Shown here: one piece after another, positions 4,061 to 59,807 of the stretch
How positions within the stretch are numbered: the first letter of the stretch is position 1
How the letters are laid out: every line of letters starts with the position of its first letter
Assembly (NCBI RefSeq): GCF_900176005.1
Contig: NZ_LT838272.1
Location: 1,507,587 to 1,571,586 of the forward strand
Direction of reading: 5' to 3'
Length of the DNA stretch: 64,000 bases
Source of the DNA: Thermanaeromonas toyohensis ToBE
GTDB lineage: Bacteria; Bacillota; DSM-521; Neomoorellales; Neomoorellaceae
Translations under genes and position numbers: made by a program
The notes under the pieces: model-generated
What the model saw: only the letters and a program-made list of their open reading frames with translations
Told to the model about the DNA's origin: nothing
Database searches by the model: none

Positions 4061-4090
4061 TGCCAGGCAACAAGGAAGGGGGTGTGACCG

Positions 4091-15956: not shown

Positions 15957-17253
15957 GATGACCTTTGAGGAAGGTCTGCGTCTAGTGCAGAGCGAGTTCA
16001 TGGACCCGGAGGTCTTGGGGGAAGAAGAGGCGGCACGCAACAGGAGGGCAGCAGAGGACGCCATGGCGGGCGTGCCGGGCAGTCGCGAGACAGTGATCTC
16101 CCTGCTGGTTTCCTTTCTGTCGGACAGGGGGATAGAGATCAAAGAAATGGATATGCAGCTGGCGGCTTATGAAATATACCGTGAACTGTGGGGCCTCGGG
16201 CCCCTGGAGGAAATATACTGCGATCCGGAAGTGAACGAAATCCAGGTAAACGCACCCGACAGGGTTTACGTGCTCAAAAACTTGAGATTGGAGTATGTAC
16301 CCGGAGTGCGGTTCCGGGACGATGACCACGTTATGAACCTCATTGCCAGGCTGGTCATGCACGACCGGGGTGTGGCGCTCAACAGGTCTAACCCCACGGT
16401 GGAGTCTATGCGCAAGGACGGTACCAGGATAACTGCTACCTGTCCGCCGGTGTCCGAGCACGTGACCTGTACGCTGCGTAAGCACCTTCGTCGCGTTGTT
16501 TCCTTCGAGGAAATGATATCTCGGGGAGTACTGGACGAAAAAGGGCGCGACCTGCTGAGGCTGCTGGTTAAGGGTCGGGCGAACATAGCTGTCATCGGCG
16601 GCGTGGGTAGCGGAAAGACGACGCTGGTGCGCACTCTGTGCGGGGAATTCGACCGGCGCGCGAGGATAGTCGTGCTGGAGACCGACCGGGAACTCCAGCT
16701 TGCCCGTAATTACCCGGACCGGAACGTGATAGAGCTGGAGGAACATGCAGAAATAGGCCGCACTTTAAAGAGCATCTTCCGCGTGGTGCTGAGGTATTCG
16801 CCGACGGTAATAATCGTAGGGGAGTTCCGGGGAGAAGGCGAGGCATCCGAGGCCGTGCAGGCCTGCGAGCGCGGACATGATGGTTCGATCACTACCGCCC
16901 ACTTTAATTCCGCCCGCCTGTTCGTGTCGGGTACGGCGAGGATGCTGCTAAGGGAGGGGCTGAACCTGCCCAGGGATGCTGCTGAAGAGATGGTGGCTTC
17001 CGCCTTCAACGTGGTGGTGAAAATGTTCGGCGATTCCACTCGCGGGGTTATGAAACTGGAGGCGATTACCGAACTGATTCCGGGAACCCCTGTGATCTAC
17101 CGCGACCTCTTGCGGTGGGTTCCGTCCGGAAGCGACTACCTCGAGGGCAACTGGCAGCTTGTGGAGCGTCCGAGCGAAGAGCTCATATTACGCCTGAACA
17201 AGTACGGCGTAAGCCGTGAGATGCTGGAAGAGGTGTATAGGCGGTGCTCGTAA
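15901..17253 (+). CDS. tadA: TadA/CpaF pilus assembly ATPase (copy 2)
   Basis: 450-aa secretion ATPase. It shows YRELWGLGPLEEIYCDPEVN at the N-terminal domain, Walker A GGVGSGKTT near residue 240, Asp-box LETDRELQL, Walker B IIVGEFRGEGEASE and the His box ERGHDGSITTAHFNS. ATG 15901 lies 10 nt after GGGAGGG (15884-15890); GTG 15895 is an alternative. It begins inside the end of cpaB2. It is only distantly similar to copy 1, so the two clusters are probably separate Tad systems rather than a recent duplication. Confidence 0.93.
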   Translation: MQISRGTLKQNLRRERAGKMTFEEGLRLVQSEFMDPEVLGEEEAARNRRAAEDAMAGVPGSRETVISLLVSFLSDRGIEIKEMDMQLAAYEIYRELWGLGPLEEIYCDPEVNEIQVNAPDRVYVLKNLRLEYVPGVRFRDDDHVMNLIARLVMHDRGVALNRSNPTVESMRKDGTRITATCPPVSEHVTCTLRKHLRRVVSFEEMISRGVLDEKGRDLLRLLVKGRANIAVIGGVGSGKTTLVRTLCGEFDRRARIVVLETDRELQLARNYPDRNVIELEEHAEIGRTLKSIFRVVLRYSPTVIIVGEFRGEGEASEAVQACERGHDGSITTAHFNSARLFVSGTARMLLREGLNLPRDAAEEMVASAFNVVVKMFGDSTRGVMKLEAITELIPGTPVIYRDLLRWVPSGSDYLEGNWQLVERPSEELILRLNKYGVSREMLEEVYRRCS

Positions 17254-25320: not shown

Positions 25321-25720
25321 AAAAGTGGAAAAAGCATGAAAAAATTATGCAAAAAGGAGTGGCTTTCATGTATGCTCTGCACAGATCTAAAACTTTGAAC
25401 GCAACTGTTGCTTTTTGCTGGTATTTTTCTGGGTTGCAAGTTAGCGCCGATCGTTTCCAGAGTAGTGGCGCTGTAGCTGATGATATGAAGGCAATAATAA
25501 CGCCTTTGTAGCTGTCCTATGTCACTGAACAGATTACCTAGCTGAAGGCTGGCTACACTGGCACTATCACTGAGATGACCGTTCAATAATGGCAAGGTGC
25601 TTAAGTAGTATAGGGAGTTGGGGTAGTTAACTTTGCAGGAGGACCGTGGTGACGCAGGGGGTACTGTGGGCAACACGGCCCTTTGTTTCTTGGGTTATTT
25701 TTGGGAAAGGAGTGAATTAT
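25321..25720 (+). pseudogene. Remnant reading frame with several in-frame stops
   Basis: 400 bp between genes. An ATG at 25368 with a strong AAAAGGAGTGG ribosome site opens a 47-codon frame (MYALHRSKTLNATVAFCW...) that stops at TAG 25509; beyond it the same frame continues to look protein-like (LSYVTEQIT, LKAGYTGTITEMTV) but is broken by further TAG and TAA codons. Best read as the 5' remnant of a decayed exported-protein gene. No other feature seen. Confidence 0.4.
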
Positions 25721-28009
25721 ATGCATGGGTTGTCCAGAAAGGTCACGAAGGTGAGCATTGCGGTATTGCTCGCGCTCTTTATGGTGCTCAACTGTTTTTC
25801 TATTGTTAGCTTGCAAATGGCCTATGCTTCGGTAGTTCAGCCGATGATATCGGCTGGAACCTACCATTCTCTCGCACTAAAGTCTGACGGCACCGTTTGG
25901 GCGTGGGGGCAAAATTCCTATGGCCAGCTAGGAGACGGCACGACAACCAACCGTTATACGCCAGTTCAGGTTCAGGGCCTTTCTGACGTTGTGGCTGTAG
26001 CGGCTGGTGGTGGTCATTCTCTTGCCTTGAAATCTGATGGCACGGTGTGGGCGTGGGGGGCAAATAATTATGGCCAGTTGGGCGACGGCACAACGGCCAA
26101 CCGTTATACGCCGGTGCAGGTTCAGGGCCTTTCTGGCGTGGTGGCTATAGCGGCTGCTCTTGGTAGTCATTCTCTTGCTTTAAAATCTGACGGCACCGTA
26201 TGGGCATGGGGATACAATTACTATGGCCAACTAGGAGATGGCACGACAACCAACCGTTATACGCCGGTTCAGGTTCAGGGGCTTTCTAACGTTGTAGCTA
26301 TAGCGGCTGGGGGTTCTTATTCTCTTGCTTTAAAATCTGATGGCACGGTATGCGCATGGGGATACAATGGCCAGGGCCAGCTAGGCGATGGCACGACGAC
26401 CAACCGTTATACGCCGGTTCAGGTCCAGAACCAGAACCTTCAATCCAGCGTGGTGGCTATTGCGACGCATGGCAATCATTCTCTTGCTTTGAAATCTGAC
26501 GGCACCGTATGGGCGTGGGGAGCAAACGCCTATGGTCAGCTAGGAGACGGTACGACGACCAACCGTCTTACGCCGGTTCAGGTCTGGAACCTCTCCGGCG
26601 TAGTGGCTATAGCGGGTGGCGGCAATCATTCTCTTGCTTTGAAATCCGACGGTACCGTGTGGGCGTGGGGATATAACGGCGCTGGGCAACTCGGCGATGG
26701 CACGACGATCAGTCGTTACACGCCGGTTCAGGTTCAGGGCCTTTCTGGTGTGGTGGCTGTAGCGGGTGGCAGCAACCATTCTCTTGCTTTAAAATCCGAC
26801 GGTACCGTGTGGGCGTGGGGGCAAAATGGCTATGGCCAGCTGGGTGACGGAACTACAACGAATAGGACTACTCCGGTACAGGTGTTGAATTTAAATCTTG
26901 GACCCTGGATAACGAGTATCACGGTAACGCCTTCTCCGGTGAACCTCCCGAAGGGCAGGACGCAACAACTCACAGTGGTGGCGAACTATTCAGATGGTTC
27001 GAGCCAGGACGTTACAAGTTCGGCCACTTATAGCTCCATGAACCCCTCGGTAGCGAGCGTGTCTTCTTCCGGTCTGGTCACGGCGGTGAACACAGGAAGC
27101 ACCGCTATCACGGTAAGCTACGGGAGTTTGTCAACCCAAGTACCCGTTACGGTGACCGCAGCGGTGGTAGACAGCCTTACGATAACCCCGTCTTCTGTGA
27201 CTCTCCCGAAGGGCGGAACGCAGCAGTTGACGGTAACGGCGAACTACTCGGACGGTTCTAGCCAGGATGTGACCGGTTCGGCGTCTTACAGCTCCAGCAA
27301 CCCATCGGTAGCAACGGTATCTTCTTCCGGGCTGATATCAGCGGTTGAGGTCGGCAGTGCTGCTATCACAGTTAGTTACGGTGGGAAGACGAGCGAAGTA
27401 CCTGTGCAGGTCACAGCTGCCCAGGGTGGTCCGCTGATTAGCGAAATTAACGTTCTCGGCGGGGTCGCTTATGAGGTGAACGGCAGAGAGGTATGGTACG
27501 TGAATAGTGACATAGTCTCCATTGAGATTTCTTTTGTTCTGAGCGGAACTTATCACCTGCGATATGACCCGGGCAATGGTTCATGGCTGGGTTGGTACAC
27601 CCGCAACGGATCCGGAGTTGTGGAAACTGTGGTTCTGGCCAAGGGGATAGGCGCTAACCTGGTGAGGATAGAGGCCGAAAAGGACGGTAATACCGACTAC
27701 AGGGAGTTAATCATAGTGGTGGACCAGGTATCCCCAAGTATCCTTAAGCTGCGGGGGTTCAGAGGGGCTACGGCTACTAGTGATCCGAGTGGTACTGCTA
27801 TTTTGGAAATCAATGTTACCGACAACCTGCCCGGTCAGCTTTATTACCAGTACCAGATAAACGGAGGCATTCCCTCTTCTTGGTTCTCGTTAACTGGTGG
27901 AACCATAAGTATTCCTGGTCTCAGTCCTGGAGCAAATAGTATAACAGTGAATGTAAAAGACCAAGTGGGCAACGTGTCTTCGGCTACCATAACGATATTT
28001 CGCATTTAG
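25721..28009 (+). CDS. Secreted RCC1-repeat / Big_2 protein with shared C-terminal domain
   Basis: 762 aa. A signal peptide (residues 5-35, ...LNCFSIVSLQMAYA) is followed by seven RCC1-type blades of about 50 residues, each with HSLALKSDGTVWAWG and YGQLGDGTT, forming a seven-bladed beta-propeller. Next come two Big_2 Ig-like domains (LPKGGTQQLTVTANYSDGS), a linker, and a C-terminal Ig-like domain ending TITIFRI shared with three neighbours. ATG 25721 has AAAGGAG at 25706-25712; an upstream in-frame start at 25646 is rejected. No LPXTG or SLH. Probable surface or pilus-associated adhesin (inference). Confidence 0.85.
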   Translation: MHGLSRKVTKVSIAVLLALFMVLNCFSIVSLQMAYASVVQPMISAGTYHSLALKSDGTVWAWGQNSYGQLGDGTTTNRYTPVQVQGLSDVVAVAAGGGHSLALKSDGTVWAWGANNYGQLGDGTTANRYTPVQVQGLSGVVAIAAALGSHSLALKSDGTVWAWGYNYYGQLGDGTTTNRYTPVQVQGLSNVVAIAAGGSYSLALKSDGTVCAWGYNGQGQLGDGTTTNRYTPVQVQNQNLQSSVVAIATHGNHSLALKSDGTVWAWGANAYGQLGDGTTTNRLTPVQVWNLSGVVAIAGGGNHSLALKSDGTVWAWGYNGAGQLGDGTTISRYTPVQVQGLSGVVAVAGGSNHSLALKSDGTVWAWGQNGYGQLGDGTTTNRTTPVQVLNLNLGPWITSITVTPSPVNLPKGRTQQLTVVANYSDGSSQDVTSSATYSSMNPSVASVSSSGLVTAVNTGSTAITVSYGSLSTQVPVTVTAAVVDSLTITPSSVTLPKGGTQQLTVTANYSDGSSQDVTGSASYSSSNPSVATVSSSGLISAVEVGSAAITVSYGGKTSEVPVQVTAAQGGPLISEINVLGGVAYEVNGREVWYVNSDIVSIEISFVLSGTYHLRYDPGNGSWLGWYTRNGSGVVETVVLAKGIGANLVRIEAEKDGNTDYRELIIVVDQVSPSILKLRGFRGATATSDPSGTAILEINVTDNLPGQLYYQYQINGGIPSSWFSLTGGTISIPGLSPGANSITVNVKDQVGNVSSATITIFRI
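25866..26885 (+). repeat. Seven tandem 150-bp repeats encoding RCC1 blades
   Basis: The motif around 'tctgacggcacc' recurs at about 25883, 26033, 26186, 26336, 26495, 26645 and 26795, a spacing of 150, 153, 150, 159, 150 and 150 bp, always a multiple of three. DNA identity between units is high, so the repeat number could change by recombination without breaking the frame. Confidence 0.9.
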
Positions 28010-31722: not shown

Positions 31723-34650
31723 ATGCAGGTGTTGAGTAAAAAGTTTTATCTTTGGCGGACACTTTTGGGGGTCAAGGCGGGTATGGTACGGAGGATATGT
31801 TTCGGATTATTATGGGCATTCCTGGCTTTGGCTCTATTGTTCAGTGCAAGACCAGCATACGCGGGTACTTGGGTACAGAGCCCCGTCGTTTTATCTGGTG
31901 GTGTGGCGGACGCCAGCGGCAGGCTGTGGGTCTCCGGCGGGTCAGTGCTCAAGTACTGGGACGGGAGTGCCTGGCAGAGCACTCCTACGTGGCCCGGAGG
32001 AACGAGCTATACTATTCAGGCTATTACCATAGGGAAAGACGGCAAGGTATGGGCAGGCGGAACCGGAGGGTATACTGCCTACTGGACGGGCAGTTCTTGG
32101 GTCAACACGGGCAGGATCTACGAATATCCGGTATACAGGACCATCAACGCAATGACTACAGCTCCCGACGGCACGATCTGGATGGCCGCGGACTATTTCC
32201 TGTATTACTGGAACGGGTCGAACTGGGTAAAGTGCGGCCAGCACCCCAATAGCAAGACAATCTCTCTCCTTCAGGCAGGGCCGGACGGCAAGATATGGAT
32301 CTCTGGCTCCGGGGTTGGTCTCTGGTACTACAGCGGCGGTTGGGTAAGCACCGGATTGGGGGATGTCAGCCAGATACTTGTGCATCCTGACGGCACGGTC
32401 TACTTTATACCTGTATATGGTAATACTAGCGCTCCAAATCCGGTGTACTACTACCGCGGTGGCTCCTTTTACTCTTTTAACGTCCCTTATGGGGCAGATT
32501 ACGAAAGCAGTATGCTGTATTTGACCGCAGTTGTGGCCCCGGATGGGAAGCTGTGGTTCGATCAACGATATACGAGTACTTCTAGTATTGTCGTATGGAA
32601 CGGGACCACTACAGTAACCCTACCCAAGCCTTCAGGTCGCGGTGGTGAAGCATCTAAAGTCCTTTTCGTTTACAACCGTAAGGTTTACTTCTACCGGAGC
32701 TACTATGGATACGTTTCCCCGCCTGATGACTGCTACTATTATGATGATAGTTCCCCGCTGTACCTCATACCTTCTCCGAACGGGACTACAGGCCAGTTAG
32801 TTGTTAAACCTGCGGCTTTTGGTGCCCAGGGCTTGCTCACCAACCTCTATTACTCTTACGATGGCTCCACCTGGCAGGATCTAGGTGTTCTTCAGGGCAA
32901 TACTGCCGTGCTGACGCCTCCTCCGGGCAAAACGGCGGTATACTTTAAGGCCCTGCTCAGGTATCCCTTGCCTGGTCTCAGCTTTACTTCGGAGTACAGC
33001 AACGTGTATACAGTCCCCCTCGTGACCAGTGTGAGCGTGAGCAGTACCTCCGGAATCGTTCAGTGGGACCAGAGCCGTGGCCGGTCATATATCCGGCTGA
33101 CCTGGCCTGCGGTGCCCAATGCGACCGGATATAAGCTGCACGTATTTGACGGGTATGCCTACCGGACTAAAGACTTGGGAAACGTTACTTCCTGGGATAG
33201 CAGGACGGCTAAGATATTCCCTTATCCGTCGGAGTTGCCCGAGAATAACTCGGTATCTACGGATCTCTTCCGCTGGGATGGTTCAGGCCTCGATTTTGAA
33301 GACACTCCCGTCAGGCTTTACAGGAGTACTGTGGGAACCGGTTATGATAGCAGCAATACCTACTACTTCAGGGTAACAGCCTATAACCAGTGGATGGAGA
33401 GCGACTTTAATGCTTCTTCTTCCTGGTGCTTTACGGCTTTACCCAGTGCGACCGATACTCAGGCTCCTTCGGGTTCTGTGGCTGTTTTGTCTTCGGAAGG
33501 TTTAAAGAAAACTTATGACCAGAATGTTAAAGTAACTGTCAACGTTTCTGACGGACAATCGGGTATTTATCAGATTTTCTTCTCTAACGATAATGTGAGC
33601 TGGACTTCCGTTTATACGGCCACCAAAAACGCTGATAACGGCACATCCGTAGCAAGCTACACTAATACCTTTTCCTGGCAGGTCACTCCTGGAGCGGGGA
33701 CGAAAACAGTTTATGCTAAAGTGGTAGACGCTGTAGGAAATGCCAAGGTTCTATCTGACTCCATTGCCCTGGCCGAGGATATGCTTCCGCCCAGCGTCAC
33801 GTTGCAAATAAACGGCGGTGCTGAATCCACTACTTCGCCCAACGTTACCCTAACCCTAAATGTTCAGGACAACGCTTCCACCACTTCCCAAATGCAGATG
33901 CGCTTTAGCAACGATGGCAACCTGTGGTCGCCGTGGGAGCCTTTCGCCCAAACTAAGACCTGGGATCTGACTGCTTCTGCCTATGGTGGCAATACCAGTC
34001 CGGGCGTAAAGAAAGTCTACGCCCAGGTGTGCGATCAGGCCCAGAACGTGGCCCTGGCGGTTGCGGAGATAGGCTATAACCCGAACCCGCCGGTGGGCAC
34101 TGTTACCATAGTAGGCGGTTCTTCCGGTACTTGGAACGGCAAGGCTGCTTTGTTTACTGCCAGTGATGCGCCGACGCTAAACCTCAATTTCCCTGGAGCT
34201 ACTTATGTGCGGTTTGATCCCGGCACAGGCATATGGGGTGATTGGGAGCCTTATGCCTCTCAGAAGACGGTCTACCTGGTCAAGTCTTCCGGTGTTACCA
34301 GGCTCCGGGTGCAGGTGAAGGATGCCTACGGGGTTGCGTCAGCGCCGCAGGAGTTCCTGGTGGTAGTGGATCCAACGCCGCCGGTTATCCAGTACCTGCG
34401 CGGCCTGAACGGAGCTACGGCGACGACTTCTTCCAGCATAACGTTAGAGATAAGCGCGACGGATAACCTACCCGGCCAGCTCCAGTACCAGTATCAGATT
34501 AATGGAGGGAACTGGAGTTCGTGGGGAACTTTATCTGGCGATATGATAAACGTCTCCGGTCTTGTGAGTGGGGCAAACAAGATAACAGTAAGTGTTAAGG
34601 ATCAGGCAGGAAATATATCTTGTTCGAGTGTAACCATATTCCGGCTCTAA
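31723..34650 (+). CDS. Secreted propeller / FN3 / Ig mosaic protein with shared C-terminal domain
   Basis: 975 aa. A long n-region, then signal peptide RRICFGLLWAFLALALLFSA cut near PAYAG. Residues about 50-340 are a repeat-type beta-propeller with 'G.I....DGKVW.GG', 'DGTIWM', 'DGKIWISG', 'DGTVYF', 'DGKLWF' at regular spacing. Then FN3-like (LTWPAVPNATGYKLHVF), Ig-like modules nearly parallel to the 28132 product and the common last domain ending SVTIFRL. The last 270 bp of the two genes are nearly identical. ATG 31723 follows AGGGGGTAAG. Likely a surface adhesin (inference). Confidence 0.78.
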   Translation: MQVLSKKFYLWRTLLGVKAGMVRRICFGLLWAFLALALLFSARPAYAGTWVQSPVVLSGGVADASGRLWVSGGSVLKYWDGSAWQSTPTWPGGTSYTIQAITIGKDGKVWAGGTGGYTAYWTGSSWVNTGRIYEYPVYRTINAMTTAPDGTIWMAADYFLYYWNGSNWVKCGQHPNSKTISLLQAGPDGKIWISGSGVGLWYYSGGWVSTGLGDVSQILVHPDGTVYFIPVYGNTSAPNPVYYYRGGSFYSFNVPYGADYESSMLYLTAVVAPDGKLWFDQRYTSTSSIVVWNGTTTVTLPKPSGRGGEASKVLFVYNRKVYFYRSYYGYVSPPDDCYYYDDSSPLYLIPSPNGTTGQLVVKPAAFGAQGLLTNLYYSYDGSTWQDLGVLQGNTAVLTPPPGKTAVYFKALLRYPLPGLSFTSEYSNVYTVPLVTSVSVSSTSGIVQWDQSRGRSYIRLTWPAVPNATGYKLHVFDGYAYRTKDLGNVTSWDSRTAKIFPYPSELPENNSVSTDLFRWDGSGLDFEDTPVRLYRSTVGTGYDSSNTYYFRVTAYNQWMESDFNASSSWCFTALPSATDTQAPSGSVAVLSSEGLKKTYDQNVKVTVNVSDGQSGIYQIFFSNDNVSWTSVYTATKNADNGTSVASYTNTFSWQVTPGAGTKTVYAKVVDAVGNAKVLSDSIALAEDMLPPSVTLQINGGAESTTSPNVTLTLNVQDNASTTSQMQMRFSNDGNLWSPWEPFAQTKTWDLTASAYGGNTSPGVKKVYAQVCDQAQNVALAVAEIGYNPNPPVGTVTIVGGSSGTWNGKAALFTASDAPTLNLNFPGATYVRFDPGTGIWGDWEPYASQKTVYLVKSSGVTRLRVQVKDAYGVASAPQEFLVVVDPTPPVIQYLRGLNGATATTSSSITLEISATDNLPGQLQYQYQINGGNWSSWGTLSGDMINVSGLVSGANKITVSVKDQAGNISCSSVTIFRL

Positions 34651-39560: not shown

Positions 39561-41003
39561 TTGCCGTTGAAGGAGAAAGTTCAGGAGCTGCTCGGCCGCC
39601 TGCGGCAGCTGGCCTCCTACCTTTCGGGACCGCGGCGGTGGTGGGTTTATGCAGTGGGGGCCGCGGTTTTTGGCCTGGTGCTGTGGGCGGCGTGGCACGC
39701 TGCTACCCCAGCATATGTAACGCTCTACTCAGGAGACTATTCTGCGGTGGCCGAGGTAACAAAGGCGCTGGAATCGAAGAAGATACCCTACAAGCTGGAT
39801 GAAGGGGGAACCCGGGTGCTTGTACCTGCCGATCAGGTGGCCAGAGCGCGCGTGGAGACACTGGGGCGGGGCATTCCGCGGCAGGGCAGCGGGGGTTACG
39901 AAATTCTGGAGAAGGTGCCTTTCGGCCTGACGGAATCGGACAGGGCTGTACGCCACCGGCAGGTGCTGGAAGGTGAGCTGGAGAAAACGATCAAGGCGCT
40001 GGGGTCGGTGGAAAGCGCCCGGGTCCACCTGGGACTGCCCAAGGAAAGCCCCTTTGTTAGGGAGAAAGTCGCCCCCACAGCTTCCGTAGTTGTGACGCCG
40101 AAGCCGGGTGCCGAGATCGGGCCTGGTGATGCGCGGGCCATTGCCAACATAGTGGCAGCGGCGGTTCCAGCCCTGACCCCCGAGAAGGTGGTTGTGACTG
40201 ATGACCGGGGGAGGCTCCTCCGATGGGACGGCTCTTCTGAGAGCGGGGAGCTGGCTCGGGACCTGGAGCGGGCGGCTTTAAACGTGCTGACTGCCGCATA
40301 CGGGCCGGGAGTGGCGGTGTCAGTGAGGGTGGAGCTGGACCCCACTACGGAAACGGTAACAGAGGAGCAGGCGGGCGCACCGCTGACCAGGAGCCGGCAG
40401 AACGTATCAGAAAGCTGGCAGGGTAGTGGTCAGCCCCCCGGGGGTGCTCCCGGTACGGGTTCTAACGTACCGGGATATTTTTATTCTCCGCCCGGTGGGA
40501 CCGGCCAGTGGCAGAAGCAGGAGACCACAGAAAACTATGAATTCCCGGTGACCCGGCGCCAGGTTACACGGCCTGCGGGCGCGGTCAAAAAGATTACGGT
40601 GGCGGCAGTGGTTCCGCGGGAGCTCGACCCGGAAGAAGAAATCCGCGCTGCCCGCCTGCTCGCGGCAGCCGTCGGGACGGATATTGCCAATGTAAGCGTT
40701 TCGGGGATTCCCCATCGCGAAGCAGAGAGCGTGCCGCCCCGGCGCATCTTTGAGGGAAAGGAGGGCTGGCTCGTGGCGGCTGCTGTTGCCGCGCTGGCAG
40801 TGTTGATCCTTGTGGTAACGATTGTGCTGTTGCGGCGACGGTCAAAGCCCGCTGTTCCCGAAACTGTTCCTGTTCCTGAGCCCTTACCTGAAACGGTGAT
40901 GCCACGTCCCAGGAGTCTTGTCGAGGAGCTGTCCGACATGGTACAGCGTGATCCCGTGGCGGCGGCCAACGCATTGCGTGCCTGGCTGGGAGAGAGCAGT
41001 TAG
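39561..41003 (+). CDS. fliF: Flagellar MS-ring protein FliF
   Basis: 480-aa MS-ring protein with an N-terminal membrane helix (about 25-50), ring-building motifs (LYSGDYSAVAEVTKALESKK, PFGLTESDRAVRHRQVLEGE, SVESARVHLGLPKESPF), a variable periplasmic-type region rich in Gly/Pro (about 285-330), a second helix near residue 410 and a cytoplasmic tail that binds FliG. Slightly shorter than the usual 520-560 residues, mostly through a short C-terminal tail. TTG 39561 follows AAGGTGGTGG. Confidence 0.93.
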   Translation: MPLKEKVQELLGRLRQLASYLSGPRRWWVYAVGAAVFGLVLWAAWHAATPAYVTLYSGDYSAVAEVTKALESKKIPYKLDEGGTRVLVPADQVARARVETLGRGIPRQGSGGYEILEKVPFGLTESDRAVRHRQVLEGELEKTIKALGSVESARVHLGLPKESPFVREKVAPTASVVVTPKPGAEIGPGDARAIANIVAAAVPALTPEKVVVTDDRGRLLRWDGSSESGELARDLERAALNVLTAAYGPGVAVSVRVELDPTTETVTEEQAGAPLTRSRQNVSESWQGSGQPPGGAPGTGSNVPGYFYSPPGGTGQWQKQETTENYEFPVTRRQVTRPAGAVKKITVAAVVPRELDPEEEIRAARLLAAAVGTDIANVSVSGIPHREAESVPPRRIFEGKEGWLVAAAVAALAVLILVVTIVLLRRRSKPAVPETVPVPEPLPETVMPRPRSLVEELSDMVQRDPVAAANALRAWLGESS

Positions 41004-41058: not shown

Positions 41059-42057
41059 GTGGTGTTGGGCTTGACTGGTCCAGAAAAAGCGGCCGTGGTT
41101 GTGACCGCTTTACCGCAGGACGTGGCGGTGCTCATCATGAGAAACCTGACTGAGCAGGAGCTGGAGACTTTGACCCTGGCGGTGGCGTCGCTGAAGCCGG
41201 TTTCTCCCGAAACTACCCGCGCGGTCCTTGAGGAGTTCCGGGAGCTCTGTGCGGCTTCCTTGGCGGTCGCGCAGGGTGGGCTCGACCGGGCGCGGGCACT
41301 CCTGGAGGGGGCTCTGGGCCGCGAGCGTGCCGCGGCGGTGGTAAAGAGGCTGGCGGCGGGGCTTGTGGTGCCGCCGCTGGACACGGCCCGGCGTGCGGAC
41401 CCGGCCTGGCTGGCGGCGTTTCTGGGGGGAGAGCGTGCGCAGATAGCGGCGGCCGTGCTGGCCTACCTGCCGCCCGAACAGGCGGCTCGCGTGTTGGAGG
41501 GGCTACCGGAGGAGAAAAGGCCGGAGGTTATTTACCGAATGGCAACCCTCCGACGGTTGAACGCTCCGATTTTGGCGGCTCTCGAGAGATACCTGGAGAG
41601 GCAGGTGTTTCTGCCCGGGGGTGAGCAGGTCTCCGGTAGTCCCGAGGCTGCGGCCCGGGTGTTGGGCAGAACCGGGCAGTCGCTTCAGGAGGATGTGCTC
41701 CGGTGGATAAACGAGCGGGACCCCGGGATGGCAGAGGAGATCCGGAGGAACATGTTCGTTTTCGAAGACCTGCTGGCGGTGAGCGACCGCGACTTGCAGC
41801 GGGTACTGCGGCACGTCGATATTTACCGCGATCTGCCTCTTGCTTTGAAGGGTGCTCCGGCGAGCATGCGGGAGAAATTCCTGCGCTGTCTCTCTTCTGA
41901 CGCAGCGGCAGTCGTGCGTGACGCCATGGAGGCGGGCCCCGTTCCGAAGCAGCAGGTGGAGGAGGCCCGGAGGCGCATCATAGAAGCGGCGCGGAAGCTG
42001 GAGGCCGAAGGGAAAATAACTCTGGCGCGGCGGGGAGAAGAGGGATATGTGGCGTAG
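41059..42057 (+). CDS. fliG: Flagellar motor switch protein FliG
   Basis: 332-aa rotor protein that binds FliF and FliM/FliN and transmits stator torque. EKAAVVVTALPQDVAVLIMR at the N-terminus, middle-domain EHPQ-like region with PPEQAARVLEGLPEEKRPE, and C-terminal torque helix (FVFEDLLAVSDRDLQRVLRH, LALKGAPASMREKFLRCLSS). Length is normal. GTG 41059. Overlaps fliH by 11 bp. Confidence 0.94.
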   Translation: MVLGLTGPEKAAVVVTALPQDVAVLIMRNLTEQELETLTLAVASLKPVSPETTRAVLEEFRELCAASLAVAQGGLDRARALLEGALGRERAAAVVKRLAAGLVVPPLDTARRADPAWLAAFLGGERAQIAAAVLAYLPPEQAARVLEGLPEEKRPEVIYRMATLRRLNAPILAALERYLERQVFLPGGEQVSGSPEAAARVLGRTGQSLQEDVLRWINERDPGMAEEIRRNMFVFEDLLAVSDRDLQRVLRHVDIYRDLPLALKGAPASMREKFLRCLSSDAAAVVRDAMEAGPVPKQQVEEARRRIIEAARKLEAEGKITLARRGEEGYVA

Positions 42058-46099: not shown

Positions 46100-47662
46100 T
46101 TGCTGAGAAGTCTCTTTTCAGGAGTGCTCGGATTGCGGGCCCATCAAACGGAACTCGACGTGGTGGGCGACAACATAGCAAACGTAAACACTCCCGGCTA
46201 CAAAGCCTCGCGGGCTGTTTTTGAGGAAATGCTGTCCCAGGTCCTCCGCCCGGGAAGCGCGCCCGGTGGCGGCATAGGGGGCGAGTTGCCGTTCCAGGTC
46301 GGTCTTGGCGTGGGGGTAGCGGGCACAGCGAGCGACCCCACCCAGGGAGGGCTGATGGTGACGAACAATCCCACGGACCTCGCACTGGACGGTGATGGCT
46401 TCTTCGTCCTCCGCGACGGGGACAAGCTTGTGTTCACGCGCGCCGGTGCGTTCCGGTGGGACGCCGAAGGCAACCTGGTAGACCCTGCTGGACGGAGGGT
46501 GCTGGGGTGGGCGGTCGGTGAGGACGGGACGGTGGCCGATCCTACGCAGTCCGCACTGCGGCCGATTTCTTCTAAAGAACTGCTTTCCATTCCGGCAGTT
46601 CAGACCACCAGGGCGGAGCTCGCACGGAACCTTACCGGTACCGATAATGGTACTTTTGTTCCGCTGGAGAACACCACGCTTGAGGTCGTTTTGCCATCCG
46701 GCCGGACGGTTCCGGTTTCGCTGGCGCTGAAGCCGACGGCAGACTTCAACTGCTGGCAGTGGTCGGCCGCCGCGGGTTCGGATGCCGCTATCGTGCCGCC
46801 TTCAGGTTACATCTGGTTTGGCCCGGACGGCACAATCGAAAAAGTGACCGACCTGGCCAACAATCCCATTACCGACGTGGCAGTAAACTTTGGTGGGGAA
46901 ACCGGCAGGTTCACGATTTCGGGATCCAGGTCGGCGCTGCAGTTTATAAGTGGCGCAGAAACTGTGACATTTCAGTATCAGAGCTGTACCTACACTGTAG
47001 AGTTTGGCGCCTACGGTCCCAAAGGCGAGCTTTACACTGTGGATGTGGTCTTTGAGAAAACCGACAACAACGTTTGGAAGTGGGCGGCGCGGGTATATGA
47101 CCCGTTCGGGAATATTGTGCCGTGCTCGTCGGGCGGCGAAGTGCGGTTCAATACTTCCGGCAGGGTGGCTGGAATAAATGGCGACACGGTGGCGTTTACG
47201 ACGGCTGACGGTGCGAACGTGGAGATCGGGTTGGACTTTTCCCAGCTTACGCAGTACGCGGGTGCAAGCACGGCAGCAGCCGTGGAAGTTAACGGCAACG
47301 CTCCGGGCGACCTGGTATCGGTTAGCATAGATGGCCGGGGTACAGTCGTCGGCTCTTATTCCAACGGGCTGACGCGGCCGCTGGCGAGGTTGGCGCTTGC
47401 TCGGTTCCGCAACCCAGCCGGCCTGTTGCGGGTCGGGGACAGCTGCTATGCGGAGGGACCCGCTTCTGGATCGGCCGTTCTGTGCGAGCCCAGGTCGGGC
47501 GGCGCCGGCCGGGTCGTGGCCGGAGCGCTGGAGATGTCCAACGTGGATTTGGCCAAGGAGTTTACGAGGCTGATTGTAGCGCAGCGTGGGTTCCTAGCCA
47601 ACGCACGCGTTATTACGGCCAGTGATGAAGTGTTGCAGGAACTGGCTAACATGAAGAGATAG
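46100..47662 (+). CDS. flgE: Flagellar hook protein FlgE
   Basis: 520-aa hook subunit. N-terminus LRSLFSGVLGLRAHQTELDV and GDNIANVNTPGYKASRAVFE, internal DLALDGDGFFVLRDG with FTRAGAFRWDAEGNLVDPAG, C-terminus GALEMSNVDLAKEFTRLIVA and ANARVITASDEVLQELANMK. The middle hypervariable region is about 200 residues longer than in FlgG. TTG 46100 begins one base after the flgD stop. Confidence 0.93.
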   Translation: MLRSLFSGVLGLRAHQTELDVVGDNIANVNTPGYKASRAVFEEMLSQVLRPGSAPGGGIGGELPFQVGLGVGVAGTASDPTQGGLMVTNNPTDLALDGDGFFVLRDGDKLVFTRAGAFRWDAEGNLVDPAGRRVLGWAVGEDGTVADPTQSALRPISSKELLSIPAVQTTRAELARNLTGTDNGTFVPLENTTLEVVLPSGRTVPVSLALKPTADFNCWQWSAAAGSDAAIVPPSGYIWFGPDGTIEKVTDLANNPITDVAVNFGGETGRFTISGSRSALQFISGAETVTFQYQSCTYTVEFGAYGPKGELYTVDVVFEKTDNNVWKWAARVYDPFGNIVPCSSGGEVRFNTSGRVAGINGDTVAFTTADGANVEIGLDFSQLTQYAGASTAAAVEVNGNAPGDLVSVSIDGRGTVVGSYSNGLTRPLARLALARFRNPAGLLRVGDSCYAEGPASGSAVLCEPRSGGAGRVVAGALEMSNVDLAKEFTRLIVAQRGFLANARVITASDEVLQELANMKR

Positions 47663-47751: not shown

Positions 47752-48534
47752 TTGGACCGCTCGACTGTTATCGGTTTCCTGGTGGGTATCGCCGCTGTGG
47801 TGTACGGGATCAAGATTGAGGGGTCACTCAGGCTTTTTTGGCATCTCCCCGCCGCCCTTATCGTCTTTGGCGGTACTTTCGCGGCGGTGCTCGTTTCCTA
47901 CCGGGTGTCGGACATCCTGCAGGTAGGAGCGATACTGCGCCAGGCTTTTGTGGAACGGCGGGAGCCCCTGCCGCAGGTGGTGGAGACGATGGTGGCCCTT
48001 GCGGACAAGGCCCGGAGGAATGGTTTCCTTTCTCTGGAAGAAGACGCGGCGCGGGCGCGGGATCCTTTTCTTGCGCGCGGGCTAAGGCTTCTGGTTAACG
48101 GCCACGATGCGAACTACATCCGCGACGTGCTGGCCGCGGAAATTCTGTATTCCCGCGACCGTCACCGGATAGGCCAGGGGATTTTCGAGCTGGCGGGCGC
48201 GCTTGCACCAGCCTTCGGGCTGTGCGGTACTCTGATAGGCATGATCCAGATGCTGTCCCGTCTCCACAACCCGCAGGAGGTGGGACCGGCTTTCGCGACC
48301 GCGATGGTGTGTACGTTTTACGGCGTGGTGTCCGCAAACCTCCTGTTTCTGCCGATAGCTGGCAAGCTGCGGCTCAGGTCGCAGGAGGAGACGGTGGCCA
48401 AGGAGCTGATGCTGGAGGGCATCCTCGCCATGGCCTCGGAAGAGCACCCTGTACTGGTTCAGCAGAAGCTGACCGCGGCCTTACGGGAAAAAGAGGGGGT
48501 TGTCCGCCGTGAAGCGGTGGCGGGACGGTGGTAA
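47752..48534 (+). CDS. motA: Flagellar stator protein MotA
   Basis: 260 aa with four membrane helices. GALAPAFGLCGTLIGMIQML and VSANLLFLPIAGKL hold the two conserved prolines of the ion channel; the cytoplasmic loop has the charged stretch that meets FliG (VVETMVALADKARRNGFLSL). TTG 47752 with AAGGAAGG upstream. Typical length and partner of the next gene. Confidence 0.93.
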   Translation: MDRSTVIGFLVGIAAVVYGIKIEGSLRLFWHLPAALIVFGGTFAAVLVSYRVSDILQVGAILRQAFVERREPLPQVVETMVALADKARRNGFLSLEEDAARARDPFLARGLRLLVNGHDANYIRDVLAAEILYSRDRHRIGQGIFELAGALAPAFGLCGTLIGMIQMLSRLHNPQEVGPAFATAMVCTFYGVVSANLLFLPIAGKLRLRSQEETVAKELMLEGILAMASEEHPVLVQQKLTAALREKEGVVRREAVAGRW

Positions 48535-53400: not shown

Positions 53401-54762
53401 TTGAGTAACTTGTTTGCGGCTATGGAAGCGGCTTCGCGGGCCATAGGGGCCCACCGGGCGGCACTCGAGGCGCGGGGACAGAACGCTGCTAACGCTACGA
53501 CTCCTGGCTACGCCCGGGAGCGGGTACAGCTCCGCAGTGCGGCACTTTTGACCCCGGCCGGAGGGCTGCCGGTACTTGTGGGTGTCGAGGCCACCGGCGT
53601 GGAAAGGATGACTGACTCCTTTGTTGATGCTGAGTCGCGGCGTGCCTTAGGTGCCCACGCGCGCTGGCAGGAGGCGCTGCGTGTTTATGAGGAGTTCGAA
53701 AGCGGTATGGGCGGGCCGGGTGACCCGAACCTGGAAGAAGCCTGCGACGCACTGTGGGCGTCCCTGCAGGACCTGGTTATGCAGCCTGAAAATCGTGCGG
53801 TACGTGCGGTGGTTATACAGCGGGCCGAGGCTTTCTGCGATGCGGTGCGACGGACTGCGTCGTTCGCGAAGGATATGCGGCATTCTCTTGATGGCCGCGT
53901 CAACGCCCTGGTGGAACGGGTTAACGGGTTGGCGGAACAGATTGCGAAGATTAATGGGGAGATCCTACAGGCGCGTGCGGCGGGGCGGGAAACCCCTTCT
54001 CTGCTTGACGAACGCGACCGGCTGCTGGACGAACTGGCGGAGCTCGTCGGTGCTAGCGTTCTAGAACGGCCGGACGGCACGGTTGTGGTAACTGCCGGCA
54101 ATGGAGTGCTGGTCAGCGGGCCGGTGGCGAACCGAATGAGATACCAGGGCGGGCGTTTGCTTTGGGAGCGCACTGGCGCGGAAGTCCGCCTGGAAGAGGG
54201 TACCGTGGCCGGGGTCTTCGAAGGCGCGGCCGCAGTAGAATCCTTCCTGGCACAGCTCGACGCGGCGGTGCGGGGGCTGAGGGAGGCGGTCAATGCGGTA
54301 CACCGGAATGGTTTCGGTCTGGACGGGTCCACAGGCCTGGATTTCTTTGCTGGAGGTGCACTCGATCTGGAGTTAAATCCGCTGTTGAGGGAAAGGCCGG
54401 AGCGGATCGCAACAGCGTCTTCGCCCGCCGGGATACCCGGCGATCCTTCCAATGCGCTCGCGCTGGCACGTGCCGTGGACAGCGCACCGGTTCTTGGGGA
54501 TCTCCCCTTCCGGGAGGCCGTCCGCGCTCTGACGGTCGGGGTGGGTACAGCGGCGGCAGGGGCCCGTGATGCGGAGAAGCTTGCGGCCGCTGTACGGGAT
54601 TCCGTGTTGCGGCAGCGCGACCAGATCCGGGGTGTGTCCCTGGACGAGGAGACGGTGGGCATGGTGCAGCACCAGCGCGCTATAGAAGCAGCCGCCCGGT
54701 ACGTGACCGCCGTCGACCAGGCCATAGAGGCGCTGTTTGAAATGGGTGCCGTTGGCCGCTAA
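53401..54762 (+). CDS. flgK: Flagellar hook-associated protein 1, FlgK
   Basis: 453 aa, first hook-filament junction protein. N-terminus AIGAHRAALEARGQNAANAT and TPGYARERVQL; middle with FVDAESRRALGAHARWQEAL, VNGLAEQIAKINGEI and SLLDERDRLLDELAELV; C-terminus GVSLDEETVGMVQHQRAIEA with ARYVTAVDQAIEALFEM. Complete axial signatures. TTG 53401 with AAGGAGGTAG upstream. Confidence 0.93.
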   Translation: MSNLFAAMEAASRAIGAHRAALEARGQNAANATTPGYARERVQLRSAALLTPAGGLPVLVGVEATGVERMTDSFVDAESRRALGAHARWQEALRVYEEFESGMGGPGDPNLEEACDALWASLQDLVMQPENRAVRAVVIQRAEAFCDAVRRTASFAKDMRHSLDGRVNALVERVNGLAEQIAKINGEILQARAAGRETPSLLDERDRLLDELAELVGASVLERPDGTVVVTAGNGVLVSGPVANRMRYQGGRLLWERTGAEVRLEEGTVAGVFEGAAAVESFLAQLDAAVRGLREAVNAVHRNGFGLDGSTGLDFFAGGALDLELNPLLRERPERIATASSPAGIPGDPSNALALARAVDSAPVLGDLPFREAVRALTVGVGTAAAGARDAEKLAAAVRDSVLRQRDQIRGVSLDEETVGMVQHQRAIEAAARYVTAVDQAIEALFEMGAVGR

Positions 54763-54799: not shown

Positions 54800-55666
54800 G
54801 TGCGTGTAACAGAAAGTGTCATTGTGGGGACCGTGCTGCGCAACATCCAGCGCAGTTTTGAAACCAGGGAAGAACTGCAGCGGCGCCTGGCGACCGGGAA
54901 AAAGGTCGCCCTGGCGTCCGACGGGCCGGCCGACGCGGCGGAAGCTTTCCGCCTGCGGTCGGCGGTGAGGCGGGAGGAGCAGTACAGCCGCAATGCGGCT
55001 ATGCTCCGGGAGTGGCTCGACGCGCAGGACGCCGCCCTTTCCCAGGCCTGCGATGTGCTGCAGAGGGCGCGGGACCTCGCCGTTCAGGGGGCGAGCGACA
55101 CAAACGATTACGCCTCGCGGAGGTTCCTGGCGCTCGAAGTGGCCCAGCTGTTCGGACACCTGCTCCAAATAGCCAACAGCAGGTTCGGGGGGCAGTTCCT
55201 GTTCGGGGGCAGCCGGACCGAAGAGGCCCCGTTCCTGCCGGACGGTACCTATGTAGGGAATGCTGACCGGCTGGAACGGGAGGTGGGCTTCAACCTTACG
55301 GTTCCCGCAGGTCTCGATGGCGGGGCTGTCTTCGGTCCGGCCTTTGCTGCCCTGGTGTCGCTGCGGGCCGCGCTGGAGAGCGGTTCCGGTAGCGATATTT
55401 CGGACCGCATCGGCGACATCGACGCGGCCCTTGACAACATCCTGGCGGTGCGGGCCGAAGTGGGGGCACGGCGCAACAGGGTGGACGACGCCGGCCGGCT
55501 GGCGGACGAGAAGGTGTACACGGCACAGCGGCTGCTTGCCGAAGTGGAAGACGCGGACCTGCCCCTCACGGCTGTACAGCTGTCCGCGGCCGAGGCCGGT
55601 TACCAGTTTGCCCTGAAGGCGGGAGCGTACCTCGTGCGATCTTCCCTCCTGGATTTCTTACGGTAA
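54800..55666 (+). CDS. flgL: Flagellar hook-associated protein 3, FlgL
   Basis: 288 aa. N-terminal flagellin-like helix (RSFETREELQRRLATGKKVA with LASDGPADAAEAFRLRSAV), NSRFGGQFLFGGSRTEEAPF typical of FlgL, and C-terminal helix (AEVEDADLPLTAVQLSAAEA). Second junction protein. GTG 54800 after GGGAGGTGCG. No flagellin gene is seen in the window. Confidence 0.92.
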   Translation: MRVTESVIVGTVLRNIQRSFETREELQRRLATGKKVALASDGPADAAEAFRLRSAVRREEQYSRNAAMLREWLDAQDAALSQACDVLQRARDLAVQGASDTNDYASRRFLALEVAQLFGHLLQIANSRFGGQFLFGGSRTEEAPFLPDGTYVGNADRLEREVGFNLTVPAGLDGGAVFGPAFAALVSLRAALESGSGSDISDRIGDIDAALDNILAVRAEVGARRNRVDDAGRLADEKVYTAQRLLAEVEDADLPLTAVQLSAAEAGYQFALKAGAYLVRSSLLDFLR

Positions 55667-55680: not shown

Positions 55681-57597
55681 GTGGCGACCGTAAGTCTCTG
55701 CATGATCGTGAAGGACGAGGCGGAGAACCTGCCGCGATGTCTGGAGAGCGCCCGTGGGGCTGTGGACGAAGTAGTGGTGGTAGACACCGGATCGTCGGAC
55801 GGAACGCCGGAGGTGGCGGCGGCGTTCGGTGCGCGGGTGCTTCACGTATCCTGGACGGACGACTTTTCCGCCGCGCGGAATGTGTCCCTTGACGCAGCAC
55901 GGGGGGACTGGGTGCTCTGGCTGGACGCGGACGAGGAGCTGGTGGACCCCGGTGCTGTGCGGGAATCAGTGGAACGCGCCGGGGAAGTCTCCGGTTTCCT
56001 GCTGACCGTGGTGAACTTCATCGGCACCGACACGCCTGGTCCGGATGCCGTAGCAAACCCGTCCCTGCGGCTGTTCCGGAACAGGCCGGAACACCGGTTT
56101 TCGGGGGCCATTCACGAACAGATAGCGGCGGCGGTAGCTGCTACCGGCCCGCTGGGTTGGTGTCCAGCTAGAATCAACCACTATGGTTACTTGCTTCGGT
56201 CCGTGTTAAAGAAGGCCAAGGTGGAGCGCAACCTGGGGATACTAGAACGGATGGCAAGAGAAAACCCGCGTGACTCCTTTACGCGGTTCAACCTGGGGGT
56301 CGAATATACGCGGCTCTGCAGGTGGGAAGATGCGCTGCGGGAGTTCCAGGCGGCGTTTCCCTCTTTACCGGCGGGATTGGAAACAGCTTACGCCCCGGTG
56401 CTGCTGAAAAACATCGTCCTCTGCCTCCGGGAGCTAGGGAGGTACGACGAAGCGATGGCCGTGCTTCGCGACGCTGAGGCGGCGTACCCGGATTACACCG
56501 ACCTGACTTATGCCCGGGGTGCAGTATTACTGGCCGCAGGTTGCTGGTCGGAAGCGGTGCGGGCGTTCCGCGAGTGCCTCCGGAGGGGTGAATCGGGGCA
56601 AAGGCACATTACGGAGCTAGGGGTCGGTGGATACAAGGCGCTGACTGGCTTGGGCTTCGCGCTCTGGCGCATGGGCGACCGCCAGGGGGCCGCCGTTTCC
56701 CTGGCGGAGGCTCTCCGGCAGGAGCCCCGCTGTGCGGAGGCCGCATGCGCGCTGGCAAATGTGCTTTTGGACGGCGGTATGGCGCCGCGGAACGTTGCCG
56801 CAACAGTGGCACCCCTAGCGAAAGGCGCGGCGGTGCGGGCCCTGGCGGGTCTTTTTCTGGAGCGGCGCTGTCCCGAGGAGGCCCTGGCGGTCGCTGGTGG
56901 GGACAGGGTGGTGCGCGCACGCTCCTTCTGGCAAAAAGGTGATGTTGCGGTAGCGCTGAATGAGCTCGAGGGGGTCGGCACTCCAGAAGCAGCCTGGTTG
57001 CGCGGTGTGTTTTTGGCTGCGAAAGGCGATTCTGCAGGGGCGGTTGCCGAATTCGAAAGGCTACGGGAATTGCTGCCGGAACATGCTGAGGCAGGCCTCG
57101 CCTTTGTGGGTCGCGGAGGGAAACCTTCTCCCGTGGCCCTCGGCGATCTCGCTTTGCTCTTGGCTGAAGGGGGGTGGCGCGAAGGGGCCGTAAGGGCAGC
57201 GGAGCTTTGCAGCGACCCCGTCGCAGCGGGGGATGTGCTGCGGCGGGCCGGATTGCGTGAGGAAGCTGCACAGCGGTACACAGGTGCGTGGCTGGCGGGA
57301 GCGGAGCTCCACGCAGAAGCATTGGACTTTCTGGTGGCGGTGGCTAAAGAGCATGGCATGGTAGAGGAAGCGGTGTTGCTGGCGGAGGCCGCATGGCAGA
57401 AAGCTCCGACCCCGGCGCGATGCGTCAGGCTGGCAACCAGCCTGGCGGCCGCGGGGAGGCCGGGCGATGCACTTGAGGTCCTGCGGGAAGGGGGGAGGAT
57501 GTTTCCTTACGCTGAAACTATGGAGCTCGCATACCGGGCGATAGAAATAGCCCGGAATATATCGCAAGTTTCAGAAGAAAGCGGAAAAAGGGGGTAA
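55681..57597 (+). CDS. GT2 glycosyltransferase with TPR region
   Basis: 638 aa. Residues 1-95 hold a GT-A domain: SLCMIVKDEAENLPRCLESA, VVVDTGSSDGT, DFSAARNVSLDAARGDWVLW and the DxD motif in WLDADEEL. Residues about 175-620 are tetratricopeptide-like helical repeats (FTRFNLGVEYTRLCRWEDAL; ALRQEPRCAEAACALANVLL). This GT2-TPR architecture is common next to flagellar genes of clostridia, where it is linked to flagellin glycosylation. It sits between flgL and fliD, and the dTDP-rhamnose genes lie nearby, so transfer of a deoxyhexose to flagellin is a reasonable inference. Confidence 0.82.
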   Translation: MATVSLCMIVKDEAENLPRCLESARGAVDEVVVVDTGSSDGTPEVAAAFGARVLHVSWTDDFSAARNVSLDAARGDWVLWLDADEELVDPGAVRESVERAGEVSGFLLTVVNFIGTDTPGPDAVANPSLRLFRNRPEHRFSGAIHEQIAAAVAATGPLGWCPARINHYGYLLRSVLKKAKVERNLGILERMARENPRDSFTRFNLGVEYTRLCRWEDALREFQAAFPSLPAGLETAYAPVLLKNIVLCLRELGRYDEAMAVLRDAEAAYPDYTDLTYARGAVLLAAGCWSEAVRAFRECLRRGESGQRHITELGVGGYKALTGLGFALWRMGDRQGAAVSLAEALRQEPRCAEAACALANVLLDGGMAPRNVAATVAPLAKGAAVRALAGLFLERRCPEEALAVAGGDRVVRARSFWQKGDVAVALNELEGVGTPEAAWLRGVFLAAKGDSAGAVAEFERLRELLPEHAEAGLAFVGRGGKPSPVALGDLALLLAEGGWREGAVRAAELCSDPVAAGDVLRRAGLREEAAQRYTGAWLAGAELHAEALDFLVAVAKEHGMVEEAVLLAEAAWQKAPTPARCVRLATSLAAAGRPGDALEVLREGGRMFPYAETMELAYRAIEIARNISQVSEESGKRG

Positions 57598-57599: not shown

Positions 57600-59345
57600 G
57601 TGGTGGCTTATATTGCGCCGTTTCAGTTTACAGGGTTGGCCTCTGGGTTCGACTGGAAGGCGGTAGTCGACCGCCTGATGGAGATCGAGCGGCGTCCCGT
57701 AGATTTGCTGAGGATGAGGCAAAAAGCTTTTGAGGACAAGCTCTTTGCCTGGCAGAGTATAGCTAGCGTGCTAGGCGACCTGAAAGCAAAACTGGAAGAG
57801 CTCGGAGTCCCTGACGCGTTCTACCGGTTAGCGGCTGTTTCTTCTGATCCTGCTGTGCTGTCCGCGTCTGCCGGGTCGGGTGCCACCGCTGGGGTCCATA
57901 CCGTCGAGGTAAGGGCCCTGGCGCTGAACCAGACAGTTGCGTCGGATTCGCAGCCCGATGGTTCTCTGGGGCTTTCGGGTACCTTCGAAGTCAATGGCCG
58001 GCAGGTAGAAGTAACATCAGCCGACACGCTGGCGGACATAGCGGACAAAATCAACCGTGCCAATGCGGGTGTAGTCGCCTGGGTTGTGGACGGCCGCCTG
58101 GTGGTCAGGAGCCTCACACCGGGCACAGCGGGTGCTCTGAGCATGCGCGACGTGTCGGGGACCGTACTCCAGACCTTAGGAGTGCTCGGTTCGGGCAACC
58201 TGGCTTTCAGGGCTTCGTACCTGAAGAGTGTGGCGCCGGACCCTTTGTATCCGGACGGAGGCGGAGAGTTTACTGATGGCCTGGAAGGCACGGACATTAC
58301 GGACGGCCTGAGTTTCGGATATTCGGGAACCGACCTGGGGGTGCCCGGTGGCGGTCCGGCTACTGTAGAGGTTACCGTTGACCTTGGCCAGGTGGCGAAC
58401 CTGACTGGGGTAAAGTTGGTCTCGGGAGGGGGTCCGAACTCGAGTTACTGTGCTGATTCTCTGGAGGTACTGACAAGCACAGATGGAGTTAATTTTGTGT
58501 CGCAGGGGAGCGTTTCGGGAGCGAACGCACGCCAGCTAACTTTGGCTTTTACGACCCAAGCGCGGTACGTGAAGTTCCGGATCACCAAGAACTTTGCCCC
58601 GGCAGATCAGCCTGGCGACTGGTTGTTCTTGGACGAGGGTTACGTCTACGGTACGGGATTTAAAAACCTCCTGCAGCCCGCCCAGGACGCTTCCGTGGTG
58701 GTGGACGGGATAGATGTGAAGCGGGGTTCTAATGTGATCAGCGATGCGGTTCCGGGCGTTACTCTGTCTCTGAAAGGGACTGGCTCAGCTACGGTGACGG
58801 TCCAACCTGACGTGCAGGCCGTAGCGGGAGAAATAGAAGCGGTGATCAAGGCTTATAACGCAGTTCTTGATAGGTTGGGGACGGTACTGGCGAAGGGGGC
58901 CGTGCTTCAGGGGGACACCTCAGCGGTAGGTATACAGGTAGCCCTGCGGAGGCTGGTCTCAGGGTACGCCGATAAACTGAGGGAGCTGGGCATTGCTTCT
59001 GCGCTGGATGGCAAGCTATCCGTTGACGCAGGAAAGCTGGCCGATGCGTTGCAGCGTGATCCTGCTGCCGTCCGCGCCGTGTTTTTCAACAGCGAGCGTA
59101 CGGGCCTGGGCGACAGGCTTTTGGCCATGCTTGGTGGATGGATTGGCATAACAGGCAGCATCCAGTCTACTGAAAGCAGCCTCAACAGGACGATAAGTTC
59201 CATCCGTGAGCAAATTGAAACCCTTGAGCGGCGGTTGGAGGTTCGGCGTCAGGTTTTGACGGCACGGTTCCTTGAGATGGAGCGTGCGCTTACTTTGTTA
59301 CAGTCCCAGGTCGCTGACCTGAGCCGCCTGGCGGTACAGCAGTAA
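57600..59345 (+). CDS. fliD: Flagellar cap protein FliD with inserted F5/8-type-C-like domain
   Basis: 581 aa filament cap. N-terminal FliD signature (FTGLASGFDWKAVVDRLMEI, AWQSIASVLGDLKAKLEELG) and C-terminal coiled region (GSIQSTESSLNRTISSIREQ; RRLEVRRQVLTARFLEMERA). Residues about 225-350 form a separate module: VEVTVDLGQVANLTGVKLVS, SLEVLTSTDGVNFVSQGSV and ARYVKFRITKNFAP..DWLFLDEGYVY, which reads as a discoidin/F5-8 type C carbohydrate-binding fold. A cap-surface domain of this kind could bind a glycan or host/mineral surface (inference). GTG 57600. Confidence 0.88.
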   Translation: MVAYIAPFQFTGLASGFDWKAVVDRLMEIERRPVDLLRMRQKAFEDKLFAWQSIASVLGDLKAKLEELGVPDAFYRLAAVSSDPAVLSASAGSGATAGVHTVEVRALALNQTVASDSQPDGSLGLSGTFEVNGRQVEVTSADTLADIADKINRANAGVVAWVVDGRLVVRSLTPGTAGALSMRDVSGTVLQTLGVLGSGNLAFRASYLKSVAPDPLYPDGGGEFTDGLEGTDITDGLSFGYSGTDLGVPGGGPATVEVTVDLGQVANLTGVKLVSGGGPNSSYCADSLEVLTSTDGVNFVSQGSVSGANARQLTLAFTTQARYVKFRITKNFAPADQPGDWLFLDEGYVYGTGFKNLLQPAQDASVVVDGIDVKRGSNVISDAVPGVTLSLKGTGSATVTVQPDVQAVAGEIEAVIKAYNAVLDRLGTVLAKGAVLQGDTSAVGIQVALRRLVSGYADKLRELGIASALDGKLSVDAGKLADALQRDPAAVRAVFFNSERTGLGDRLLAMLGGWIGITGSIQSTESSLNRTISSIREQIETLERRLEVRRQVLTARFLEMERALTLLQSQVADLSRLAVQQ

Positions 59346-59387: not shown

Positions 59388-59807
59388 TTGGAGCAGCAAG
59401 TTTTCGACTACCTGGAGAACAAGATACAGACTGCTTCACCGGGCAAGCTGCTGCTTATAGCGTACGAAGGAGCATTGCGGTTGCTTGGGCAGGCCGAACG
59501 GGCGTTGCGGGAGGGCAATTACCCCGCGGCAGTCCGTTCTTCGGTGCGAGTCCAGCAGCTCATGGCCGAATTAACCAAAGCACTTGACCCGACGGTAGCC
59601 CCAGACCTGGTGGAAAATCTAGAAAAGCTTTACGACTGGGTTTCCCGGGAAACCGCGGACGCCGTCAGTAAGCAACAGCCAGAGAGACTGGAAGGACCGA
59701 AGAAGGTAGTGGAGGAGCTGTATTCGGCGTGGCGGGAAGCGGTGCTGAAGGCAGAATCGTGCAGCTCAGCCGGCTCATCAAAGAGGCCGTCGAGCGTGGC
59801 GAGATAA
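59388..59807 (+). CDS. fliS: Flagellin chaperone FliS
   Basis: 139 aa helical secretion chaperone. VFDYLENKIQTASPGKLLLI, AYEGALRLLGQAERALREGN and a helix with LVENLEKLYDWVSRETADAV match FliS. TTG 59388 after GGGAGGGAG. It binds the flagellin C-terminus until export. Its 3' end overlaps the next short gene. Confidence 0.92.
   Translation: MEQQVFDYLENKIQTASPGKLLLIAYEGALRLLGQAERALREGNYPAAVRSSVRVQQLMAELTKALDPTVAPDLVENLEKLYDWVSRETADAVSKQQPERLEGPKKVVEELYSAWREAVLKAESCSSAGSSKRPSSVAR

Follow-up and report, generated by a model that had tools for sequence, protein, structure and literature searches.

The locus examined here raises the question of whether a flagellar cap protein (FliD) of Thermanaeromonas toyohensis ToBE carries a genuine F5/8 type C (F5/8C) domain between otherwise normal FliD ends, and whether such a domain might make the tip of the flagellum adhesive, as an initial annotation had proposed. 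The window (the whole stretch of DNA that was analysed, 64,000 nucleotides) contains one of the two flagellar systems of this genome, at positions 39561-59807 (Table 1). The other, primary set lies at C1:978-997k, with FliG at C1:996383 and the flagellin, glycosyltransferase, FliD and FliS genes near C1:978-985k; a second flagellin gene is located 5.3 kb beyond the end of the window. The flagellar system of the window is divergent; searches of 17 other family genomes did not recover it, and we regard it as the extra one because the other family genomes with FliG have a single FliG gene. A FliG search of the phylum sample for the source of this second system returned none that was close (Table 1). 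Upstream of the flagellar locus, the window also holds two type II/IV secretion or Tad-like gene sets, at 2702-6351 (ParA-like, T2SSE and T2SSF) and at 15895-17253 (T2SSE). The region 25646-28009 encodes a protein of 787 aa that has RCC1 repeats and Big_2 domains; more large secreted-looking proteins follow up to position 37871.

Table 1. Features of the second flagellar locus and of the fliD2 insert, in window coordinates.
Feature	Position	Strand	Remarks
fliF of second flagellar system	39561..41003	+	PF01514, PF08345
fliG of second flagellar system	41059..42057	+	nearest relatives ~42-44% identical (398 phylum genomes)
flgE, hook protein of second system	46100..47662	+	FlgE_D2 and others
motA of second system	47752..48534	+	PF01618
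flgK	53401..54762	+	FlgK_D1
flgL, flagellin-like N-terminus	54800..55666	+	PF00669; position directly after flgK
GT2-TPR glycosyltransferase, directly upstream of fliD2	55681..57597	+	PF00535 plus TPR
fliD2, flagellar cap protein with inserted F5/8C module	57600..59345	+	581 aa; GTG start
insert between head domains D3 and D2	58203..58670	+	residues ~202-357; holds F5/8C (CBM32/discoidin-like) module
N-terminal motif YPDGGGEFTDGLEGTDITDG	58248..58307	+	residues 217-236; read from sequence; departs from Pfam model
core of F5/8C match	58356..58589	+	residues 253-330; PF00754
fliS, gene next after fliD2	59388..59807	+	PF02561, 90.6 bits

Judged by its sequence, the product of fliD2 is a FliD-type cap protein with an intact scaffold, and its assembly at the flagellum tip is predicted. 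Four Pfam families matched it above their curated cutoffs, in the order FliD_N (residues 15-111, 73.8 bits against a cutoff of 24.8), Flagellin_IN (residues 134-171), F5_F8_type_C and FliD_C (residues 361-568, 136.1 bits against 25.4), in agreement with the annotated normal ends. The AlphaFold (AF2) model of the whole protein was confident for the D0/D1 helices and for the D2 strands that flank the insert on either side, with pLDDT mostly above 85 in these parts, and was of low confidence at approximately residues 184-359, a region without homologous rows; the fold models of FliD2 and of its module were built on few alignment rows. The best fold matches of the FliD2 model in the PDB were FliD caps (of Salmonella, E. 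coli and Campylobacter), with E values down to 6e-22. No close relatives of the whole FliD2 protein were found among the genome contigs of the collection searched. The primary FliD (L019, 462 aa) is ordinary and has no F5/8C module; the initial annotation had missed both this paralog and the membership of FliD2 in a second flagellar system. At C1:2121.8k (L035:6478-7761) in G000, outside both flagellar loci, we also observed a FliD-like gene that stands alone, codes for about 427 aa and has a partial FliD_C match; such a gene is also present in G001 and G012 (a 331-aa ORF in the latter).

Relative to the insert-free paralog, the insert of FliD2 is about 155 residues long. When FliD2 was aligned with related FliDs, that of the primary locus among them, the flanks matched on both sides and the insert stood alone, and the D3-to-D2 spacer measured 188 residues in FliD2 versus a median of 37 among 71 FliDs. 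The Pfam matches and the alignment together place the module after Flagellin_IN and before the return to D2, which corresponds to the Head2-to-Head1 junction of P. aeruginosa FliD (PMC5072837), and this insertion site supports the proposed location of the domain on the outer head of the cap. A module of 120 residues had been annotated at 58290-58655 (FliD2 residues 231-352); an extra segment does lie there, although its boundaries (Table 1) make it slightly longer. The three motifs that had been quoted share one open FliD frame, with DLG at residue 261 and ARYVK at residue 321. The GC content and GC3 of the insert are the same as those of the rest of the gene, and the module is free of frameshifts and stop codons. 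We considered recent transfer of the module alone, which this match in composition between insert and flanks does not support.

The domain search called for in the initial annotation placed F5_F8_type_C (PF00754) over its curated cutoff, with 34.5 bits versus 28.2 and an E value of 2.5e-8 in the full protein, and with 38 bits when the insert was scanned alone; the match spans only positions 31/32-114 of the 127 in the profile. By hhalign, the module matched an F5/8C profile that we had constructed independently, from twelve further domains of this family, at 95.1% (E 3e-8, 31% identity, residues 257-333), while the insert-free FliD paralog, used as a control, scored 0.1% against the same profile. 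The structure prediction also requested there gave a mixed outcome: a single-sequence model of the isolated module was all-beta and its top PDB neighbours in Foldseek were mostly of the CBM32/discoidin/C2 type, but the model was weak (pLDDT 54, pTM 0.58) and these neighbours had E values of 0.009-0.1, with none below 0.001. They comprised a chitosan-binding module, a GH84 CBM32, lectinolysin, galactose oxidase, a NedA-type sialidase, factor VIII C2 and DDR2. The profile, profile-profile and structural-neighbour evidence supports the assignment of the FliD2 insert as an F5/8C domain of the CBM32/discoidin-like kind.

We weighed against this assignment the alternative that the insert represents a diverged D2/D3 or D4-like domain of the ordinary FliD type, the outcome that the initial annotation had named as speaking against its own reading. 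Extra D4/D5 domains with D2/D3-like folds are known from H. pylori (PMC8306008), and the structure model of the module is of low confidence. However, FliD2 has Flagellin_IN/D3 and the two halves of D2 as well as the module, which is thus an additional domain, and two independent profile methods identified F5/8C where the paralog control gave nothing, so that we consider an ordinary head domain highly improbable.

The N-terminal third of the module, the region of the YPDGGGEFTDGLEGTDITDG motif, fits the Pfam model poorly, and the DGN..TRW stretch that is usual there is absent. The TRW position is invariant or nearly so in the compared F5/8C set and is unmatched in the FliD2 module. Here the region reads YPDGGGEFTDG...GYSG, without the Trp of ASxxAVDGNxxTRW and with a DG whose equivalence is putative; the ASxxAVDGNxxTRW stretch is typical of most F5/8C members and stands outside the curated Pfam cutoff. 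From its sequence, the YPDGGGEFTDGLEGTDITDG motif is probably still part of the F5/8C module.

Fusions of this kind are rare. In this genome, F5/8C matched above the cutoff once, in fliD2, and the 12 other family genomes that the phylum sample lists gave no such match. A sub-threshold hit of 15 bits, at window 33550-33675 within a protein of 975 aa, is probably due to chance. Across the phylum sample, F5/8C matches occurred in 91 of 398 genomes; we sought FliD in 80 of the 90 remaining positive genomes and scanned every FliD of at least approximately 560 aa there. No F5_F8_type_C match was present in 68 of the 71 FliDs scanned, which leaves at least three fusions in the sample, a lower bound because ten large F5/8C-rich genomes were left out. 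Besides FliD2, the F5/8C-bearing FliDs are those of Firmicutes bacterium UBA3943 (L111) and Clostridia bacterium DTU022 (L112), both Bacillota MAGs, and each, like FliD2, has one inserted F5/8C domain over the cutoff. Their modules lie inside FliD_C, in the D1 helical region (profile position ~165-190), whereas that of FliD2 lies between D3 and D2, and they align poorly with the FliD2 module (18-24% identity). Because the sites differ and the modules share so little identity, the fusion arose independently at least twice. The nearest stand-alone relatives of the FliD2 module were weak, with E values of approximately 1e-5 among phylum genomes and 1e-4 among plasmids.

Other FliDs carry different inserts. 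Among the FliDs compared, no significant F5/8C domain was found elsewhere at the D3-D2 site; the FliD of G276 (L082:1039-2724) has an insert of about 110 aa in this same spacer, and its alignment with F5/8C is co-linear and not significant (1.4%, E 0.037). In four FliDs from the family (L012, L015, L017 and L018), an insert at a third site, ahead of D3, measures about 160 aa and has no Pfam match; we considered this pre-D3 insert as a hidden F5/8C domain, which the alignment (1.3%) does not support. In the FliD of G037 (L007:142-2190), residues 509-589 match DUF2460 (conserved hypothetical) over the Pfam cutoff, inserted in FliD_C.

F5/8C domains also serve as lipid or protein binders, or as spacers. 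The insert might be a neutral or antigenic spacer in a tolerant FliD head, with no selected binding function, and the diversity of inserts in related FliDs at three sites (the ~160 aa before D3, the long D3-D2 inserts and those of the D1 region) is consistent with this, as is the replaceability of D2/D3 in Pseudomonas (PMC8533109). We nonetheless judge a spacer unlikely, since FliDs of other Bacillota independently gained a member of a ligand-binding family at a different site, and since the module has kept its reading frame, with the same GC3 as its gene.

A further alternative takes the F5/8C module as real and assigns it a role within the flagellum, in which it would recognise the glycans of its own flagellin or pack against neighbouring cap subunits and stabilise the cap, instead of attaching to foreign surfaces. 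In each of the two flagellar loci, fliD is immediately preceded by a GT2-TPR gene (that of the primary locus, read from the L034 sequence, is similar to the one in the window), and the filament may be glycosylated because this gene adjoins fliD in both. The head domains of P. aeruginosa FliD, moreover, touch neighbouring subunits (PMC5072837). This role appears improbable to us, as the primary FliD stands beside a similar glycosyltransferase and yet has no module, the Pseudomonas heads are dispensable for capping (PMC8533109), and the glycosylation of the filament is itself presumed.

We lean, with some reserve, towards a second-system FliD that would display an F5/8C module on its outer head, for which ligand binding and adhesion of the tip are predicted. 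The divergent N-terminal third of the module, its low-confidence fold model, the lipid-binding, protein-binding or spacer roles of other F5/8C domains and the lack of a significant second case at this FliD site count against it. A whole F5/8C beta-sandwich domain, of the CBM32/discoidin kind, would have been inserted where the chain returns from D3 to D2. The FliD2 cap would form as usual, through the D0/D1 helices and the D2/D3 plate, and the module would be present in five or six copies, carried by the outer head of this distal cap. The most likely function of these copies would be ligand binding; the target would probably be a polysaccharide or glycan of surfaces, of neighbouring cells or of particles, and multivalent adhesion of the flagellum tip could result. 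In Pseudomonas, D2/D3 of FliD are both dispensable for filament growth and replaceable (PMC8533109), and an inserted binding domain in the head should therefore be tolerable. An adhesive tip is plausible, because caps are adhesins in some bacteria and the heads are dispensable in Pseudomonas, and it is the best-supported hypothesis of our analysis.

If this is true, flagellar stickiness could be tested simply, as the suspected adhesive part would be one detachable domain of the cap, and the FliD paralog without the module in the same genome would provide a natural control. That F5/8C domains entered FliD independently at a second site suggests repeated acquisition of binding modules by caps. 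A broader proposal goes further, with FliD as a recurrent platform for swapped-in binding domains and the second flagellum as a tethering or sensing organ that acts through lectin-type cap modules while the primary flagellum swims; this we regard as doubtful.

FliD2 shares with known FliD caps (HAP2; Salmonella 9gnz, E. coli 5h5v and P. aeruginosa 5fhy) the D0/D1 helices, the head of D2 and D3, the fliS-adjacent gene, and FliD_N and FliD_C matches over the cutoff, and differs from them by an F5/8C domain added between D3 and D2. Among the F5/8C, CBM32 and discoidin domains of PF00754, its module, as modelled, has fold neighbours such as 4zy9 (chitosan-binding), 4gwi (lectinolysin) and 2v5d (C. 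perfringens CBM32), with which the strands VDLG, S.DG.N and ARYVKFRI are common; unlike in those domains, its N-terminal third departs from the model and its host protein is a flagellar cap rather than an enzyme or a classical adhesin. Extra globular domains on the cap are also found in C. jejuni (D4) and H. pylori (D4/D5). The C. jejuni domain is inserted in the D1 bundle (PMC7316729), whereas the FliD2 insert lies outside this bundle and the UBA3943 and DTU022 modules use the D1 region; the H. pylori domains have D2/D3-like folds and a proposed link to infection (PMC8306008). Neither is described as F5/8C in these papers (PMC7316729, PMC8306008), and the literature searched, in which coverage of subscription papers was partial, held no relevant report of a FliD with a discoidin-type domain, although domain databases may list one. 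Adhesion to mucin has been reported for P. aeruginosa FliD, which is ordinary and has no binding domain added to it (PMC8306008), in contrast to FliD2 with its putative one. Extra domains on the FliD head and adhesion mediated by the cap are thus already known, and the F5/8C domain in FliD is a new variation on them.
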